Positions 8,260-13,707 of a stretch of DNA of 64,000 bases are shown here, in pieces. The stretch is from Acidobacteriota bacterium. Its GTDB lineage: Bacteria; Acidobacteriota; Vicinamibacteria; Vicinamibacterales; UBA2999. The translations under genes and the position numbers were made by a program. Where the stretch lies: assembly GCA_016789705.1 (NCBI GenBank), contig JAEUQR010000129.1, positions 1 through 64,000 of the forward strand, in the 5' to 3' direction. Position 1 is the stretch's first letter. Every line of letters starts with the position of its first letter. The notes beneath the pieces were generated by a model. That model saw nothing but the letters and a program-made list of their open reading frames with translations, did no database searches and was not told the origin of the DNA.

Positions 8260-8948
8260 GCGGTGCGGCCCGCCAGGCGGTCGTGCGGCGTGGGCACGAA
8301 GCGTACGACATCCCCCGGCGCGAGGAGCGCCGGCTCCGGACGCGCCAGGTCGAACATCGCGACCGGCGTGCGGCCGATGAGCCGCCAGCCGCCGGGACTT
8401 TCGCATGGATAGACGCCCGTCTGCCGTCCGGCGATGCCGACGCTGCCGGCCGGTACCGACGTCCGCGGCGCGCTCCGCCGCGGCATCGCGATGGTCGCAT
8501 CGACGCCGCCCAGGTAGGCGAACCCCGGCAGGAAGCCCAGCATGTAGACCCGGTAGCGCCCGGCCGCGTGGCGCGCGACCACGTCGTCCTCCGAACAGCC
8601 GGCAAACGCGGCCACCTCCGGCAGATCCGGACCGAACGTCCCCCCGTAGCAGACGGGAATCTCGACGAGACGGGCCGGTGGCTCCGCCCCCACGGCCGTA
8701 TCCCACGCGTGCGACACCACGGCGTCGAGCGACGCCTGGTCGAACCGCAGCGGATCGACGTGCACGCCGACCGACGCGTACGCCGGTACCACGTCGCGCA
8801 CGCCCGGCACGCGCGCCGCCGCGATGGCGCCGGCGAGCGCCACGGCGCGGCGGTTCACCTCTGGCGCAATCGTGCTCTCGAACTCGACGAGCACGAGACT
8901 GTCGCCCGCGTGGTGCAGCCGCGGCCGCGAGATCGTGGTCACGCTCAT
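8256..8948 (-). CDS. pxpB: 5-oxoprolinase subunit B (KipI/AHS1 family)
   Basis: The 230-residue AHS1 subunit that pairs with PxpC. Conserved segments visible are DSLVLVEFESTIAPEVNRRAVAL at the N-terminus (beta-strand plus helix of the cyclophilin-like fold), ETPVCYGG-type segment EIPVCYGGTFGPDLPEVA (about residues 97-114), LGFLPGFAYLGGVD (about 136-149) and SVGIAGRQTGVYPCESPGGWRLIGRTP (about 168-194), which is the family hallmark. The ATG at 8948 overlaps the mpl stop (ATGA at 8945-8948), so mpl, pxpB, pxpC and murB are coupled in translation. B. subtilis KipI, a kinase inhibitor, is a relative; the operon partner argues for an enzyme subunit. Confidence 0.87.
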   Translation of the reverse strand: MSVTTISRPRLHHAGDSLVLVEFESTIAPEVNRRAVALAGAIAAARVPGVRDVVPAYASVGVHVDPLRFDQASLDAVVSHAWDTAVGAEPPARLVEIPVCYGGTFGPDLPEVAAFAGCSEDDVVARHAAGRYRVYMLGFLPGFAYLGGVDATIAMPRRSAPRTSVPAGSVGIAGRQTGVYPCESPGGWRLIGRTPVAMFDLARPEPALLAPGDVVRFVPTPHDRLAGRTA

Positions 8949-10351
8949 GCGAGCGCCTCGAGCAGCTTGCCGTGGATGCCGCCGAAGCCGCCGTTCGACA
9001 TCACGAGCACGTCATCGCCGTCGCGGGCCTCGCGCGCCACGGTCTCGACGATCGCCTCGACCGACGGCAGCTCGCGCGCGGCGACGCCCGCGGCCGCAAG
9101 ATCACGGACGAGTTCAGGGACGTCGAGACGATCCGCCTCGGGCAACGTATTCCTGAAGACCGGCGCGATGACGACCGCGTCGGCGCCGCCGAACGCCCGG
9201 GCGAAGTCGGACTGGAAGACCCGCCGGCACGACGAGGCCGAGCGCGGCTCGAAGAGTGCCCACAGGCGCCGCCCGGGGCGCGCCGCCCGGAGGGCCGCAA
9301 TCGTTTCGGCAACGGCCGTCGGATGGTGCGCGAAGTCGTCGTAGACGGTGACGCCGCGCCGCTCGCCCACCACCTCCAGCCGCCGCTTCACGCCGCGGAA
9401 GGTCATGAGACCCGTGCGGATCGCGTCGAGCGACAGGCCGCAGTCGTGCGCCACGGCAATCGCCGCGAGGGCGTTGCGCACGTTGTGCTGCCCGAGCAGC
9501 GGCACATCGAGCGTGGCCGTCAGGCCGGACGGTCCGTGCAGCGTGAAGCGCGTGCCGGCGCCCTGCTGTTCGAGACCGGTCGCCCGCCACGTCACGCCGT
9601 CGCCGAGTCCGAACGTCTGCACGCGCGACCGCGCGCCAGCGGCCAGCCCGGCCGCTTCCGCACTGTCGGCGCCGAGCAGCACGAGCCCGCGTCTCGGCAC
9701 GAGGGTGACCAGGCGCCTGAACGCCAGCCGCACGGCGTCGAGGTCCTCGTAGATGTCGGCGTGATCGAACTCGACATTGTTCACGACGGCGATGTCGGGC
9801 AGGTACTTCAGGAACTTCGCGCTCTTGTCGAAATAGGCGCTGTCGTATTCGTCGCCCTCGATGACGAACGCACGCCCCCGGCCCAGCCGGTAGCTGCCGC
9901 CCTGGCCATCCTGCCCGAGGTTGCGCGCGATGCCGCCGACGAGCACCGACGGATCCATGCCGCCGCTCGTCAGCAGCCAGCCCGTGAGTGCCGTGGTCGT
10001 GGTCTTGCCGTGCGTGCCGGCGATGACGATGGCGTCGGCATCCCACAGGAACGTCTCGCGGATGATCTCCGGCATCGAGACATAGCGGATCGAACGATCG
10101 AGCACGGCTTCGAGTTCGGGATTGCCGCGCGAGATGGCGTTGCCGACGACCACGACGTCGATGGCGCCGTGAATGTGCGACTCGTCGTAGCCTTCGAGCA
10201 GCGCGATCCCTTCGGATCGCAGGAAGTCGCTCATCGGCGGATACACATGCGCATCCGAGCCCTGCACGCGGTCGCCGCGGCGCTGCAGCATCGCAGCGAG
10301 CGTGCCCATGGCCGTGCCGCAGATGCCGATGAAATGTACGGTGCGTGGCAT
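8945..10351 (-). CDS. mpl: UDP-N-acetylmuramate:L-Ala-gamma-D-Glu-meso-DAP ligase
   Basis: Recycles murein tripeptide by ligating it directly to UDP-MurNAc, using ATP in the cytoplasm. The 468-residue protein starts with a Rossmann segment FIGICGTAMGTLAAML (7-22) and GSDAHVYPPMS (31-41); the 'GSDANVYPPMS' pattern separates Mpl from MurC. The ATP P-loop is AGTHGKTTTT (111-120). Further Mur-ligase blocks are VEFDHADIYED, GQHNVRNALAAIA and YDDFAHHPTAV. It lies between ldcA and pxpB in the recycling operon; start TGATG shares a base with the ldcA stop. Presence of Mpl implies DAP-containing murein. MurC is the alternative, but the N-terminal signature and context fit Mpl better. Confidence 0.92.
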   Translation of the reverse strand: MPRTVHFIGICGTAMGTLAAMLQRRGDRVQGSDAHVYPPMSDFLRSEGIALLEGYDESHIHGAIDVVVVGNAISRGNPELEAVLDRSIRYVSMPEIIRETFLWDADAIVIAGTHGKTTTTALTGWLLTSGGMDPSVLVGGIARNLGQDGQGGSYRLGRGRAFVIEGDEYDSAYFDKSAKFLKYLPDIAVVNNVEFDHADIYEDLDAVRLAFRRLVTLVPRRGLVLLGADSAEAAGLAAGARSRVQTFGLGDGVTWRATGLEQQGAGTRFTLHGPSGLTATLDVPLLGQHNVRNALAAIAVAHDCGLSLDAIRTGLMTFRGVKRRLEVVGERRGVTVYDDFAHHPTAVAETIAALRAARPGRRLWALFEPRSASSCRRVFQSDFARAFGGADAVVIAPVFRNTLPEADRLDVPELVRDLAAAGVAARELPSVEAIVETVAREARDGDDVLVMSNGGFGGIHGKLLEALA

Positions 10352-11304
10352 CAGCAGACCGCCGGTTCTTCGATGGAGAGGCCGGCGCCACTGGGACCGG
10401 CCGTGAGGCGCGCGGTGACGCCCACGGGCAGCGTCCAGGCCGGCATCTCGGTGTGGCCCGACGGGAACCCGAAGACGACCGGCCCGGGGAAGCGCGCCAG
10501 CAGATCGCGCAGCACGCCGCGCGCCGTGGGCCCGCCGCCGCCCTCGTCGCACCGCGGGAACGTGCCGAGCACGAGGCCGGTCACGCGCGAGAACATCCCG
10601 GCCTGATGCAGCTGCGTCATCAGGCGGTCGAGACGATACGGGCGTTCGCCCACGTCTTCAAGGAAGAGAATCGTGGGCTCGCGCGGAATCACCGCCCACG
10701 GCGTGCCGAGCAGCGCCGCGAGTTGCGTGATGGTGCCGCCAAGCAGCACGCCGTGCGCATCACCCGGACGGAAGACTTCGAGGCCCGCCGGCGTCAGCGT
10801 GCCCATGGGGACGGGCCGCGTCACGGCCGCCATGAACGACGCGCGGTCGTAGCCGCCGATGCCGCGGGCGAGGCGGCCCTCGACCATCGGGCCGTGGAAC
10901 GCGACACCGCCCTGCGCCACGTGCCAGGCCAGGAGCGCCGTGATGTCGCTGTAGCCCACGAAGACCTTGGGGTCGGCGGCCAGCCACCGGGGATCGAGCG
11001 CCGGCAGCAGTTGCTGGCTGCCGTAGCCGCCGCGCACGGCGATGATCCCGCGAATCGACGGGTCACGCCACGCGTCGGCCAGGCAGGCCACGCGCACGGC
11101 CGGCGTGCCGGCCACGTACCCGTGACGCGCCAGCACACGTTCGTCGTACACCGGCTCAAAGCCCAGGGCGCGCAGTTCGTCGGCGCCGCGCGTCAGCTCG
11201 TCGGCCTGCACGGGACTCGCCGGGGCCACGAGGGCGATGCGATCGCCGGGTTGCAGACGCCGCGGGCGCCGGCGCCCGGCGAGCGTGCGTGTCTCGTCAC
11301 TCAT
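10351..11304 (-). CDS. ldcA: LD-carboxypeptidase (peptidase S66)
   Basis: Cytoplasmic serine peptidase that removes the terminal D-Ala from murein tetrapeptide, giving the tripeptide used by Mpl. The 317-residue product has the S66 nucleophile in VGYSDITALL (Ser119), the catalytic Glu in ILFLEDVGERPYRLDR (Glu216) and His in GFPSGHTEMP (His284). This spacing is nearly the same as Ser115/Glu217/His285 in Pseudomonas LdcA. The RGGYGSQQLLPALD block precedes the nucleophile elbow. No signal peptide is present. The start ATG 11304 overlaps the nagZ stop (ATGA) and the stop shares a base with mpl's start. It is embedded between nagZ and mpl, in pathway order. Confidence 0.94.
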   Translation of the reverse strand: MSDETRTLAGRRRPRRLQPGDRIALVAPASPVQADELTRGADELRALGFEPVYDERVLARHGYVAGTPAVRVACLADAWRDPSIRGIIAVRGGYGSQQLLPALDPRWLAADPKVFVGYSDITALLAWHVAQGGVAFHGPMVEGRLARGIGGYDRASFMAAVTRPVPMGTLTPAGLEVFRPGDAHGVLLGGTITQLAALLGTPWAVIPREPTILFLEDVGERPYRLDRLMTQLHQAGMFSRVTGLVLGTFPRCDEGGGGPTARGVLRDLLARFPGPVVFGFPSGHTEMPAWTLPVGVTARLTAGPSGAGLSIEEPAVC

Positions 11305-12392
11305 GCGAATGCTGCCATTTCCGCCGCGACGAGCTGGTGCTCCTCGCATCCGACGACCTGCTTCCAGCCCCTGAGCCGCTCACGGGCCGGAGGGCGCGGC
11401 CCGCCGAGGAAACGGGCCTTCTGCCTTGTCACCCGGGCTACCGCGTCGTCGAGACGCGCCAGCGGAATGTCGCCCGTCTCCACCGCCTTGACGAGCCCTT
11501 CGAGCACGGCGGCCTGCACATCGACGTCGCCGGCGCAGACGAGCACGGCATCACAGCCCGCACGCACCGCGGCCACGGCCGCTTCGGCCGGTGTCCACTG
11601 CTTCGCGATCGCCTTCATCTCGAGGTCGTCGCTCACGATCATGCCCGCGTGGCCGAGTTCCTCGCGCAGCAGCCGCAGCACCACGGGGGAAAGCGTGGCC
11701 GGGCGCGAGTCGTCGAGCGCCGGCACGAGCACGTGCGCCGTCATGACGCAGGCCACACCCGCGGCGATCGCGGCGCGGAAGGGCGCGAACTCCACACCGC
11801 GCAGGCGATCCGGACCGTGCTCGACGAGCGGCAGTTCGAAATGGGAGTCGACCGTCGTGTCGCCGTGCCCCGGGAAGTGCTTGCCACAGGCCGCGACACC
11901 CTCGCCCTGGAGCGCCGAGATGATGGCCGCGCCGAGCGCGGCGGTGCCGGCGGCGTCGTCTGAAAGCGCACGGTCGCCGATGGCCGGATTGGCGGCGTTC
12001 GTGAGCACGTCGAGCACCGGCGCGAAGTCGAGCGTCACGCCGACGGCCCGCAGTTCGCGCGCGAGCGCGGTGGCAAACCGTGTGGCGAGTTCGGGCGAGG
12101 CCGCGCGCCCGAGTGTGGCGGCCGGCGGCCACACGGTGAACGGCGTCTTGAGGCGGGCGACGCGGCCACCTTCCTGATCGACACTCACCCACGCCGGCGC
12201 GCCGGCGCCAAGCGCCTCAACGGAGAACGCGACCTCGAGCACCTGCTCGGGGCTCTCGACGTTGCGTGCGAAGAGCGTGACACCGCCCAGATCGAATTCA
12301 CGAGCGAGGGCGGTGAGCTCCACGGGCACCGCGTGACCGGTGAAGCTCCCGATGAGCACCTGCCCGACGCGTCGACGTAGCGGCATCGGCAT
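11301..12392 (-). CDS. nagZ: Beta-N-acetylhexosaminidase NagZ (GH3)
   Basis: Cleaves GlcNAc from GlcNAc-anhydroMurNAc(-peptide) in the cytoplasm during murein recycling. The 363-residue single GH3 domain carries WVSVDQEGGRVARL (68-81), the NagZ loop KHFPGHGDTTVDSH (171-184) with the His acid/base of the His/Asp dyad, and MIVSDDLEMKAI (251-262) holding the nucleophilic Asp. There is no signal peptide, as expected for NagZ and unlike periplasmic GH3 glucosidases. ATG 12392 is chosen from two nearby ATGs (12392, 12386) and lies about 6 nt after the predicted transcription start. It is the first gene of the seven-gene murein operon and divergent from a GHMP kinase. Confidence 0.94.
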   Translation of the reverse strand: MPMPLRRRVGQVLIGSFTGHAVPVELTALAREFDLGGVTLFARNVESPEQVLEVAFSVEALGAGAPAWVSVDQEGGRVARLKTPFTVWPPAATLGRAASPELATRFATALARELRAVGVTLDFAPVLDVLTNAANPAIGDRALSDDAAGTAALGAAIISALQGEGVAACGKHFPGHGDTTVDSHFELPLVEHGPDRLRGVEFAPFRAAIAAGVACVMTAHVLVPALDDSRPATLSPVVLRLLREELGHAGMIVSDDLEMKAIAKQWTPAEAAVAAVRAGCDAVLVCAGDVDVQAAVLEGLVKAVETGDIPLARLDDAVARVTRQKARFLGGPRPPARERLRGWKQVVGCEEHQLVAAEMAAFA

Positions 12393-12404
12393 GCGAATAC
12401 GAGC

Positions 12405-12412
12405 ATTATAAT
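12405..12412. promoter_or_regulatory. Divergent promoter with overlapping -10 boxes
   Basis: The 8-bp near-palindrome ATTATAAT gives TATAAT on the plus strand (12407-12412) and TATAAT on the minus strand (12410 to 12405). The plus-strand box ends 6 nt before GTG 12419, so the kinase mRNA should be leaderless. The minus-strand box predicts a start near 12398, about 6 nt before nagZ ATG 12392. Two polymerases could not occupy both boxes at once, so the two operons should compete. Confidence 0.6.
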
Positions 12413-12418
12413 TCCGCC

Positions 12419-13414
12419 GTGACCGTGACCGCTTCCGCCCCGACGCGTGTGGATCTCGCCGGCGGCACCATCGACATCTGGCCGCTCTACCTGCTCCACC
12501 CGGGTGCACAGACCCTGAACGCCGCCCTGACCATCCGCACGACGGTGCGCCTCGAGGCGCGGGCCGATGAGGGTATCGTGCTCGTGTCAGAGGACCTCGG
12601 CATCACCACACCGCCCCTGCCCTTCGACGCCCTGCCGCACGAAACGACCCTGCCGCTCCTGGCCAGGCTGGCGCACGCGTTCGGGGCGCGTGGTCTCACG
12701 GTCACGACGCGCAGCGATGCGCCGGCCGGCGCCGGCATCGCCGGGTCTTCGGCCCTGAACATCGCCGTCACGGCGGCGCTGTCGGCGTGGACAGGGCGAC
12801 ACCTCGACCACGAGGGGATCCTCGAGGTGGCCAAGAACGTCGAGGCCCAGGTGATTCGCGTGCCCACAGGCCTCCAGGACTACCGCCCGGCGCTCTACGG
12901 CGGCGTGGCCGCGGTGGAACTCGGCCCATTCGGCGCGGCCCGCGTGGCACTGCCGGTGGATGCCGCGGCGCTCGGCGCGCGGTTGGCGCTCTGCTACACG
13001 GGCGCCCCCCGCCAGTCGGGCATCAACAACTGGGAGATCACCAAGCGCCGCATCGATGGCGACGCGGCCGTCACCGCGGCCTTCGACGCCATCGTCGATG
13101 CCACCACGCGGATGCGGGCGGCACTCGTGGCCGGCGACTGGCCCGGCGCCGGCGCCTGTCTGGCCGAGGAGTGGTCGACGCGGAAGCAGCTCGCGCCCGG
13201 CGTCACCACCCCCACCATCGACGCCCTGCTCGACGCCGCGCGGGCGGCCGGTGCGTGGGGCGGCAAAGTGTGCGGGGCCGGTGGCGGCGGCTGCCTCTTC
13301 GCCCTGGCGCCGCCCGACCGCGTGGACGCCATTCGCGACCTGTGGCGCGCGGCCGGCGCGCGCGTGCTCGACACGGGTATCGACCCGGAAGGACTGCAGG
13401 TGACGACCTCATGA
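12419..13414 (+). CDS. GHMP-superfamily sugar kinase
   Basis: A 331-residue small-molecule kinase. The three GHMP motifs are visible: motif 1 near the N-terminus (APTRVDLAGGTIDI, 7-20), the Gly/Ser-rich ATP loop PAGAGIAGSSALNIA (102-116) and motif 3 GGKVCGAGGGGCLFAL (281-296). The motif 1 form PxRVDLAGGxxD is shared with heptose-7-phosphate kinase and fucokinase-like members, so a sugar or sugar phosphate is a better guess than mevalonate. GTG 12419 is fixed by the -10 box 6 nt upstream. It is divergent from nagZ, which raises the possibility of a murein-sugar substrate, but that is inference from position only. It is coupled (ATGA) to the small gene downstream. Confidence 0.8.
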   Translation: MTVTASAPTRVDLAGGTIDIWPLYLLHPGAQTLNAALTIRTTVRLEARADEGIVLVSEDLGITTPPLPFDALPHETTLPLLARLAHAFGARGLTVTTRSDAPAGAGIAGSSALNIAVTAALSAWTGRHLDHEGILEVAKNVEAQVIRVPTGLQDYRPALYGGVAAVELGPFGAARVALPVDAAALGARLALCYTGAPRQSGINNWEITKRRIDGDAAVTAAFDAIVDATTRMRAALVAGDWPGAGACLAEEWSTRKQLAPGVTTPTIDALLDAARAAGAWGGKVCGAGGGGCLFALAPPDRVDAIRDLWRAAGARVLDTGIDPEGLQVTTS

Positions 13415-13707
13415 CACGCCGCCCCGATGCGCTCGCCGAAATCAGGAAGCTCTACTACGGCACGACGAAGGCCACGGTGGTCCGCGATCTCGACCGCGCC
13501 ATCGACCTCCTGAAAGGCCTGCCGAGTGACGACGAGCGCGAGAAGGCGGCCGTCTACATGGACGGCCTCGCCCAGATGCGGTCGGAGTGGGGGGTGAAGA
13601 GCCAGGCACCCGCCGGCGGCGCGAAGCCCCTTGCCGGCGCGAAGAAGACGGCGGCGCCGGCGCGGGCGCCGCGCGGCGGCCGCGGCCGGGCGTCGAAGGC
13701 GCGCTAG
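13411..13707 (+). CDS. Small basic protein of unknown function
   Basis: A 98-residue protein I do not recognise. Residues 1-65 look like a compact helical domain (RRPDALAEIRKLYYGTTKAT, then an acidic helix SDDEREKAAVYMDGLAQMRS). Residues 66-98 form a low-complexity Ala/Lys/Arg/Gly tail resembling those of nucleic-acid-binding proteins. It starts inside the stop of the GHMP kinase (ATGA at 13411-13414), so it is probably made with the kinase. Its stop codon overlaps by 4 nt the stop of the convergent gene on the minus strand. Confidence 0.7.
   Translation: MTRRPDALAEIRKLYYGTTKATVVRDLDRAIDLLKGLPSDDEREKAAVYMDGLAQMRSEWGVKSQAPAGGAKPLAGAKKTAAPARAPRGGRGRASKAR

Follow-up and report, generated by a model that had tools for sequence, protein, structure and literature searches.

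Two divergent gene units separated by 26 nt

The window analyzed here, a 64,000-nt stretch from the genome of an Acidobacteriota bacterium, contains two gene units that point away from each other across a gap of 26 nt (12393-12418). The minus-strand unit, for which we infer cotranscription of all three genes, consists of nagZ, an ldcA-like gene and mpl. These assignments, made by profile matches, bear out the murein operon that a first-pass annotation had placed on this strand, and the unit is a murein-recycling set. The plus-strand unit opens with a sugar kinase of the GHMP family, followed by a small ORF. The genes and the features between them are as follows, from left to right.

8945..10342, minus strand: mpl, UDP-MurNAc:tripeptide ligase (TIGR01081, 419.6 bits against a curated cut-off of 388.7)
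10351..11304, minus strand: ldcA-like L,D-carboxypeptidase (PF02016 and PF17676; under the NCBIfam cut-off of NF008424)
11301..12392, minus strand: nagZ, glycoside hydrolase family 3 beta-N-acetylhexosaminidase (PF00933, 4.4e-84; NF003740, 229.1 bits against a cut-off of 207)
12398, minus strand: predicted nagZ transcription start, with a leader of about 6 nt
12405..12410, minus strand: TATAAT of nagZ, 12 nt between box end and ATG
12405..12412, unstranded: putative shared -10 element ATTATAAT, palindromic in 31/56 kinase-bearing genomes
12407..12412, plus strand: TATAAT of the kinase, 6 nt between box end and GTG
12419, plus strand: predicted kinase transcription start, coinciding with the first base of the GTG
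12419..13414, plus strand: GHMP-family sugar kinase (PF00288 and PF08544)
13411..13707, plus strand: small ORF of 98 aa with no family match, overlapping the kinase stop by ATGA

The kinase is nearest to heptose-phosphate kinases, its top solved relatives (led by 3k85, 1.8e-24) being annotated as heptose-phosphate or putative sugar kinases; it matches several sugar-kinase models, all under the NCBIfam cut-offs listed. Its neighbors suggest a role in murein-sugar recycling, and the idea that its substrate is a sugar set free by NagZ is a conjecture. ATGA overlaps occur in both units, joining the nagZ stop to the ATG of the ldcA-like gene (11301-11304) and the kinase stop to the start of the 98-aa ORF (13411-13414). 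No Rfam family matched at its gathering threshold within 11800-13000.

A TATAAT box readable on both strands

Within the gap, ATTATAAT occupies positions 12405-12412 and reads TATAAT on the plus strand (12407-12412) and again on the minus strand (12410-12405), with an offset of two bases and four bases in common. That is, two -10-like hexamers overlap on opposite strands, as expected of a shared -10 element, and the coordinates confirm what the first-pass annotation had said of the two hexamers, their offset and the width of the gap. The left AT of the palindrome belongs to the nagZ side and the right AT to the kinase side; the form with an altered left AT is GCTATAAT. The surroundings have a G+C content of 66.5-78.5% (200-base windows). 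There is a single copy of ATTATAAT in the window, none of 100 shuffles contained one, and the whole genome (5,034,211 bases) has two, at C87:12405, which is the window site, and at C172:19409.

The 7-bp distance between -10 element and start site, described as optimal in passages of PMC12825309, predicts that transcription begins at 12419 on the plus strand and at 12398 on the minus strand, 21 bp apart. The first of these positions is also where the inferred GTG of the kinase begins. Since the inferred ATG of nagZ (beginning at 12392) lies 12 nt from its TATAAT, a leader of about 6 nt is expected on that side. The commonest geometry of bidirectional promoters, with starts 18 bp apart, coinciding -7 and -11 positions and a T at -18 (usual, not required), is not the one found in the window; the T at -18 is absent on both strands, G (12401) standing there for the plus strand and C (G at 12416) for the minus strand.

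Spacing between the boxes and the start codons

Transcripts that begin at or next to the start codon would be in keeping with the genome at large. The pattern TATAATN5-7RTG occurs 20 times in the genome of the window, compared with 2 occurrences of the reversed control pattern, and it exceeds that control in each of the 59 genomes that we searched, this one included. For the related loci, we compiled a set of 136, of which 116 were distinct after removal of duplicates and 83 carried an exact TATAAT at the expected place. The kinase box is separated from the start codon by 5-7 nt in 79 of these 83, 58 of them having a spacing of exactly 6. On the other side, the spacing between box and nagZ ranges from 6 to 13 nt across the 35 loci in which a palindromic box has nagZ close by.

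In the window, the first T of the kinase box (12407) precedes the GTG (12419) by 12 nt, which is the leaderless distance, and the corresponding distance for nagZ (12410 to 12392) is 18 nt, which exceeds it. Elsewhere the two sides can be more alike, the first T lying 12-15 nt from the nagZ start (spacing 6-9) in 18 of the 35 close palindromic loci. We thus predict a leaderless transcript for the kinase and a nearly leaderless one for nagZ; the expectation of the first-pass annotation that both would be leaderless or nearly so fits this prediction.

Palindromic boxes and the distance to nagZ

The symmetry of the kinase box varied with the position of nagZ. Among the 83 loci with an exact TATAAT, the box was palindromic in 35 of the 36 with nagZ at most 14 nt away, in 4/15 with nagZ at 15-40 nt, in 14/24 with nagZ beyond 40 nt and in none of the 8 that have no nagZ upstream. 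The start codons of nagZ and the kinase are 19-28 nt apart in the 35 close palindromic loci. The single close locus with a non-palindromic box, L090, offers a further in-frame ATG at a distance of 27 nt and could have been assigned wrongly. The contrast between 35/36 and 0/8 suggests that the palindrome persists where both genes rely on it, and agrees with the earlier proposal of one palindromic -10 box serving two divergent units.

The remaining 33 of the 116 distinct loci showed no exact TATAAT at the expected place. An upstream nagZ was present in 10 of them, no closer than 35 nt to the kinase start except in L027 (18 or 36 nt, depending on start choice), and ATTATAAT was found within 60 nt in none of these 10.

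Where nagZ is distant, the two kinds of kinase box differed in what accompanies them. We counted nagZ as having a separate -10 element when a hexamer with no more than one mismatch stood 5-14 nt ahead of a start. Such an element was present in 18/21 loci in which the kinase box is non-palindromic, 11 of them exact where shuffling predicts 0.6, and in 0/18 loci in which it is palindromic (Fisher p = 2.7e-8, a value that ignores relatedness). The split version is seen most clearly in L018, L024, L026 and L116, where two TATAAT boxes, each at leaderless spacing, have their outer ends 25-34 bp apart. This swap between fused and separate boxes can be read directly from the genomes, as can the presence, spacing and recurrence of the palindrome.

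The 18 palindromic loci with a distant nagZ (L052, L085, L084, L062 and 14 others) mean that the palindrome also exists without a close nagZ. Here nagZ starts 28-222 nt away and lacks a -10 element of its own. We looked in these leaders for a consistent start, a ribosome-binding site and a short upstream ORF, and found none of them; Shine-Dalgarno-like sequences preceded nagZ in 2/18 loci, against 2.2 expected by chance.

Recurrence in related genomes

Of the 59 genomes searched, 56 had a kinase ortholog that could be read, the other three (G037, G043 and G049) giving weaker matches only. The palindrome was found at the kinase in 31 of the 56, that of the window included, with nagZ at most 14 nt away in 25 and further off in 6; a non-palindromic box was present in 17, and 8 were without an exact TATAAT at the expected place. 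Palindromic boxes occur in 11 of 13 families and in all five genomes searched from the genus of the window. Within the family of the window (36 genomes), all 16 palindromic loci have nagZ close by and none of the 15 non-palindromic ones does, five loci without an exact box having been left unscored. Among the related loci, the best 80 of at least 500 confirmed come mostly from Acidobacteria, several of them from Vicinamibacterales. The check suggested along with the original observation, whether relatives that share the gene order conserve the palindrome, left the shared box standing.

A quick kinase tree was built from 93 rows, 82 of them with both traits; 27 of its 90 inner branches are weakly supported. 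It requires at least 7 changes of the palindrome and at least 11 of nagZ proximity, and the two traits differ together between the sister rows L030/L032, L064/L061 and L028/L026. Seven independent pairs that differ in nagZ proximity gave a palindrome difference in the same direction in 4-5, no difference in 2-3 and the opposite direction in none (p 0.06-0.125). Five independent pairs that differ in the palindrome went the same way in 4-5, with one opposite in some pairings (p 0.06-0.375). On their own, the independent-pairs tests are not significant.

Other copies of the palindrome

We also inspected 54 other ATTATAAT sites, 53 from relatives plus the second copy in the genome of the window, with the contig-edge site G048:C32:203 excluded. 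Their neighbors were divergent in 41 cases, codirectional in 2 and unclear in 11. The 59 non-palindromic leaderless TATAAT sites that served as controls, a hand-picked, non-random sample of 41 sites from seven genomes (among the matches listed) and the 18 non-palindromic ones from the genome of the window, comprised 16 divergent and 22 codirectional cases, with 21 unclear or otherwise arranged. The ratios of divergent to codirectional neighbors, 41:2 versus 16:22, differ at p = 9e-8 when relatedness is ignored, and when homologous sites are clustered, using the first 45 controls, they stand at 17:2 versus 11:13 (p = 0.004). Orientation was called by a codon model that was right for 82/82 kinase and 66/66 nagZ sides, but these are the same loci on which it was trained. 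Start codons on the far side, at 5-13 nt, were not enriched (18/54 palindromes versus 14/59 controls, p = 0.30), so that the argument from orientation depends on what the codon model called.

The second copy in the genome of the window, C172:19409 (L003, 1501-1508), lies between genes called divergent, with an ATG 7 nt past its TATAAT; by eye, the neighbor on the other side has a signal-peptide-like N-terminus. Annotated pairs at other palindromes were a transketolase-like protein with a DUF4149 protein, a DUF255 thioredoxin-like protein with a GAF protein, and a sulfatase with a zinc carboxypeptidase, three pairs for which a common function is not obvious. Within genus g11, two groups of palindromic boxes (L196, L198 and L199; L197 and L200) are flanked on either side by start codons at 8-13 nt and lie between homologous pairs. 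The 23-bp geometry (ATTATATAAT) was tried as well and set aside, giving just 7 match rows in 4/59 genomes.

A candidate bidirectional promoter and its alternatives

On the strength of these comparisons we regard it as highly probable that ATTATAAT is a bidirectional promoter of the sigma-70 type, its palindrome being the fusion of two -10 boxes, one from each of the facing genes. RNA polymerase would load on ATTATAAT in either orientation. Rightward, it would start at the kinase GTG and produce a leaderless mRNA; leftward, its start would lie about 6 nt ahead of the nagZ ATG, giving a nagZ-ldcA-mpl mRNA. Each gene appears to require TATAAT a few bases ahead of its start codon. With starts 19-28 nt apart, one palindrome could meet the needs of both, and a nagZ that lies further off would often have its own box, leaving a kinase box that is non-palindromic.

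A simpler reading takes the box as the promoter of the kinase only, the extra AT being due to chance or part of that promoter, and has nagZ transcribed from elsewhere. The 18 palindromic loci in which nagZ starts 28-222 nt off, without a -10 element near its start, speak for this reading. It sits poorly with a palindrome that is absent from all eight loci without an upstream nagZ and present in 35/36 with a close one, with the separate nagZ -10 in 18/21 distant non-palindromic but 0/18 distant palindromic loci, and with the 41:2 excess of divergent neighbors at palindromes elsewhere, and we consider it unlikely. That ATTATAAT is instead the operator of a dimeric regulator strikes us as very improbable, even though a perfect 8-bp palindrome invites the thought and the first flanking pair is often complementary too. 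Such complementarity was seen in 34/48 kinase loci (the palindromic members of an earlier locus set, itself 7 loci short owing to a missing motif) against a mean of 22.5 in shuffles that ignore relatedness, and in 21/41 other divergent sites against a shuffled mean of 14.3, a count reached in 1.6% of shuffles. The second and third flanks, however, were complementary at chance level in both site sets, and symmetry so confined to the first flank is more in line with a -10 element than with a long operator. Moreover, the core equals the -10 consensus and stands at the spacing of a leaderless gene (5-7 nt in 79/83 loci), and the same 8-mer serves gene pairs of differing kinds. A column table of the 35 close palindromic loci (18 clusters) revealed no TTGACA-like -35 block on either side of the box, and its conserved columns to the right of the box are the kinase start and its first codons. 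The 8-mer is invariant in this table because only close palindromic loci were entered, which says nothing on its conservation.

A further possibility builds on the bidirectional promoter and does not compete with it, namely that exclusive binding sets the kinase against the murein operon and that the arrangement is conserved as such a reciprocal switch. The original observation had gone this far, deriving built-in reciprocal control from exclusion at the box. Its two parts fare differently. Passages of PMC12825309 state that opposing polymerases are unable to bind a bidirectional promoter together, which makes polymerase exclusion at ATTATAAT likely by analogy; a reciprocal switch does not follow from it. 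According to the same passages, the other side is repressed once one direction is substantially activated, but basal activity was too low for competition at all five E. coli bidirectional promoters tested, so that exclusion, though expected here, may matter only where one side is strongly activated. The gene content lends the switch some appeal, the minus-strand genes serving murein recycling and the kinase possibly handling a released sugar. Against this, relatives separate the two boxes or have no nagZ upstream, and the lack of an obvious common function in the three other annotated pairs fits gene compaction better than a switch. As an explanation for the conservation of the box, we find the switch improbable.

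Returning to the bidirectional promoter, we tentatively put forward a broader proposition, which we hold to be somewhat less likely than not: facing genes with little or no leader in Vicinamibacterales-type Acidobacteriota would, on coming close, repeatedly fuse their -10 boxes into ATTATAAT as a dedicated two-way promoter, and would separate the boxes once more as the distance grows. If true, promoter bidirectionality would be a conserved and evolvable device for packing genes, not a by-product of -10 symmetry. A gap of 26 nt may in this way suffice for two divergent genes, with neither a ribosome-binding site nor a -35 element visible. Relatives that carry fused, split or lone non-palindromic boxes at one gene are near-replicates spread across a bacterial order, and comparing them offers a way to test for selection on symmetry in boxes that serve two genes.

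Comparison with known systems

Bidirectional promoters that share a -10 element are reported from all prokaryotes in passages of PMC12825309. As far as the available text of that paper and of PMC10268837 goes, this work concerns E. coli and Salmonella and describes the symmetry as inherent to the -10 element. The arrangement in the window resembles the promoters described by Warman, Grainger and co-workers (PMC12825309, PMC10268837) in that one symmetrical -10 element would yield divergent RNAs and polymerases that exclude each other, here as a prediction from sequence. It differs in that the palindrome is exact over 8 bp and the starts are predicted to lie 21 bp from each other, unlike the separations of 18 (the commonest), 10 and 23 bp that PMC12825309 gives as common in the passages available. 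In addition, and unlike what those passages of the two papers describe, the box is found again in different families within a single bacterial order, and the predicted mRNAs have no leader (kinase) or a very short one (nagZ); neither paper uses the word "leaderless" in the available text. A search of the open-license literature, at the level of top-ranked titles and abstract openings, returned no description of a fused nagZ/kinase box.

Leaderless genes with TANNNT about 12 bp before the start codon are described in the available part of PMC3160421, which counts Acidobacteria among the groups that have them (3/3 genomes). The kinase follows this rule, the first T of its TATAAT lying exactly 12 nt before the GTG, whereas nagZ in the window, 18 nt from its first T, would have a short leader. 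That paper deals with single genes, "divergent" occurring 0 times in its main text and once in its full text as available, and the present case is a divergent pair. Back-to-back divergent promoters with separate -10 boxes, finally, are found among the relatives themselves, in L018, L024, L026 and L116; the window instead has them fused.
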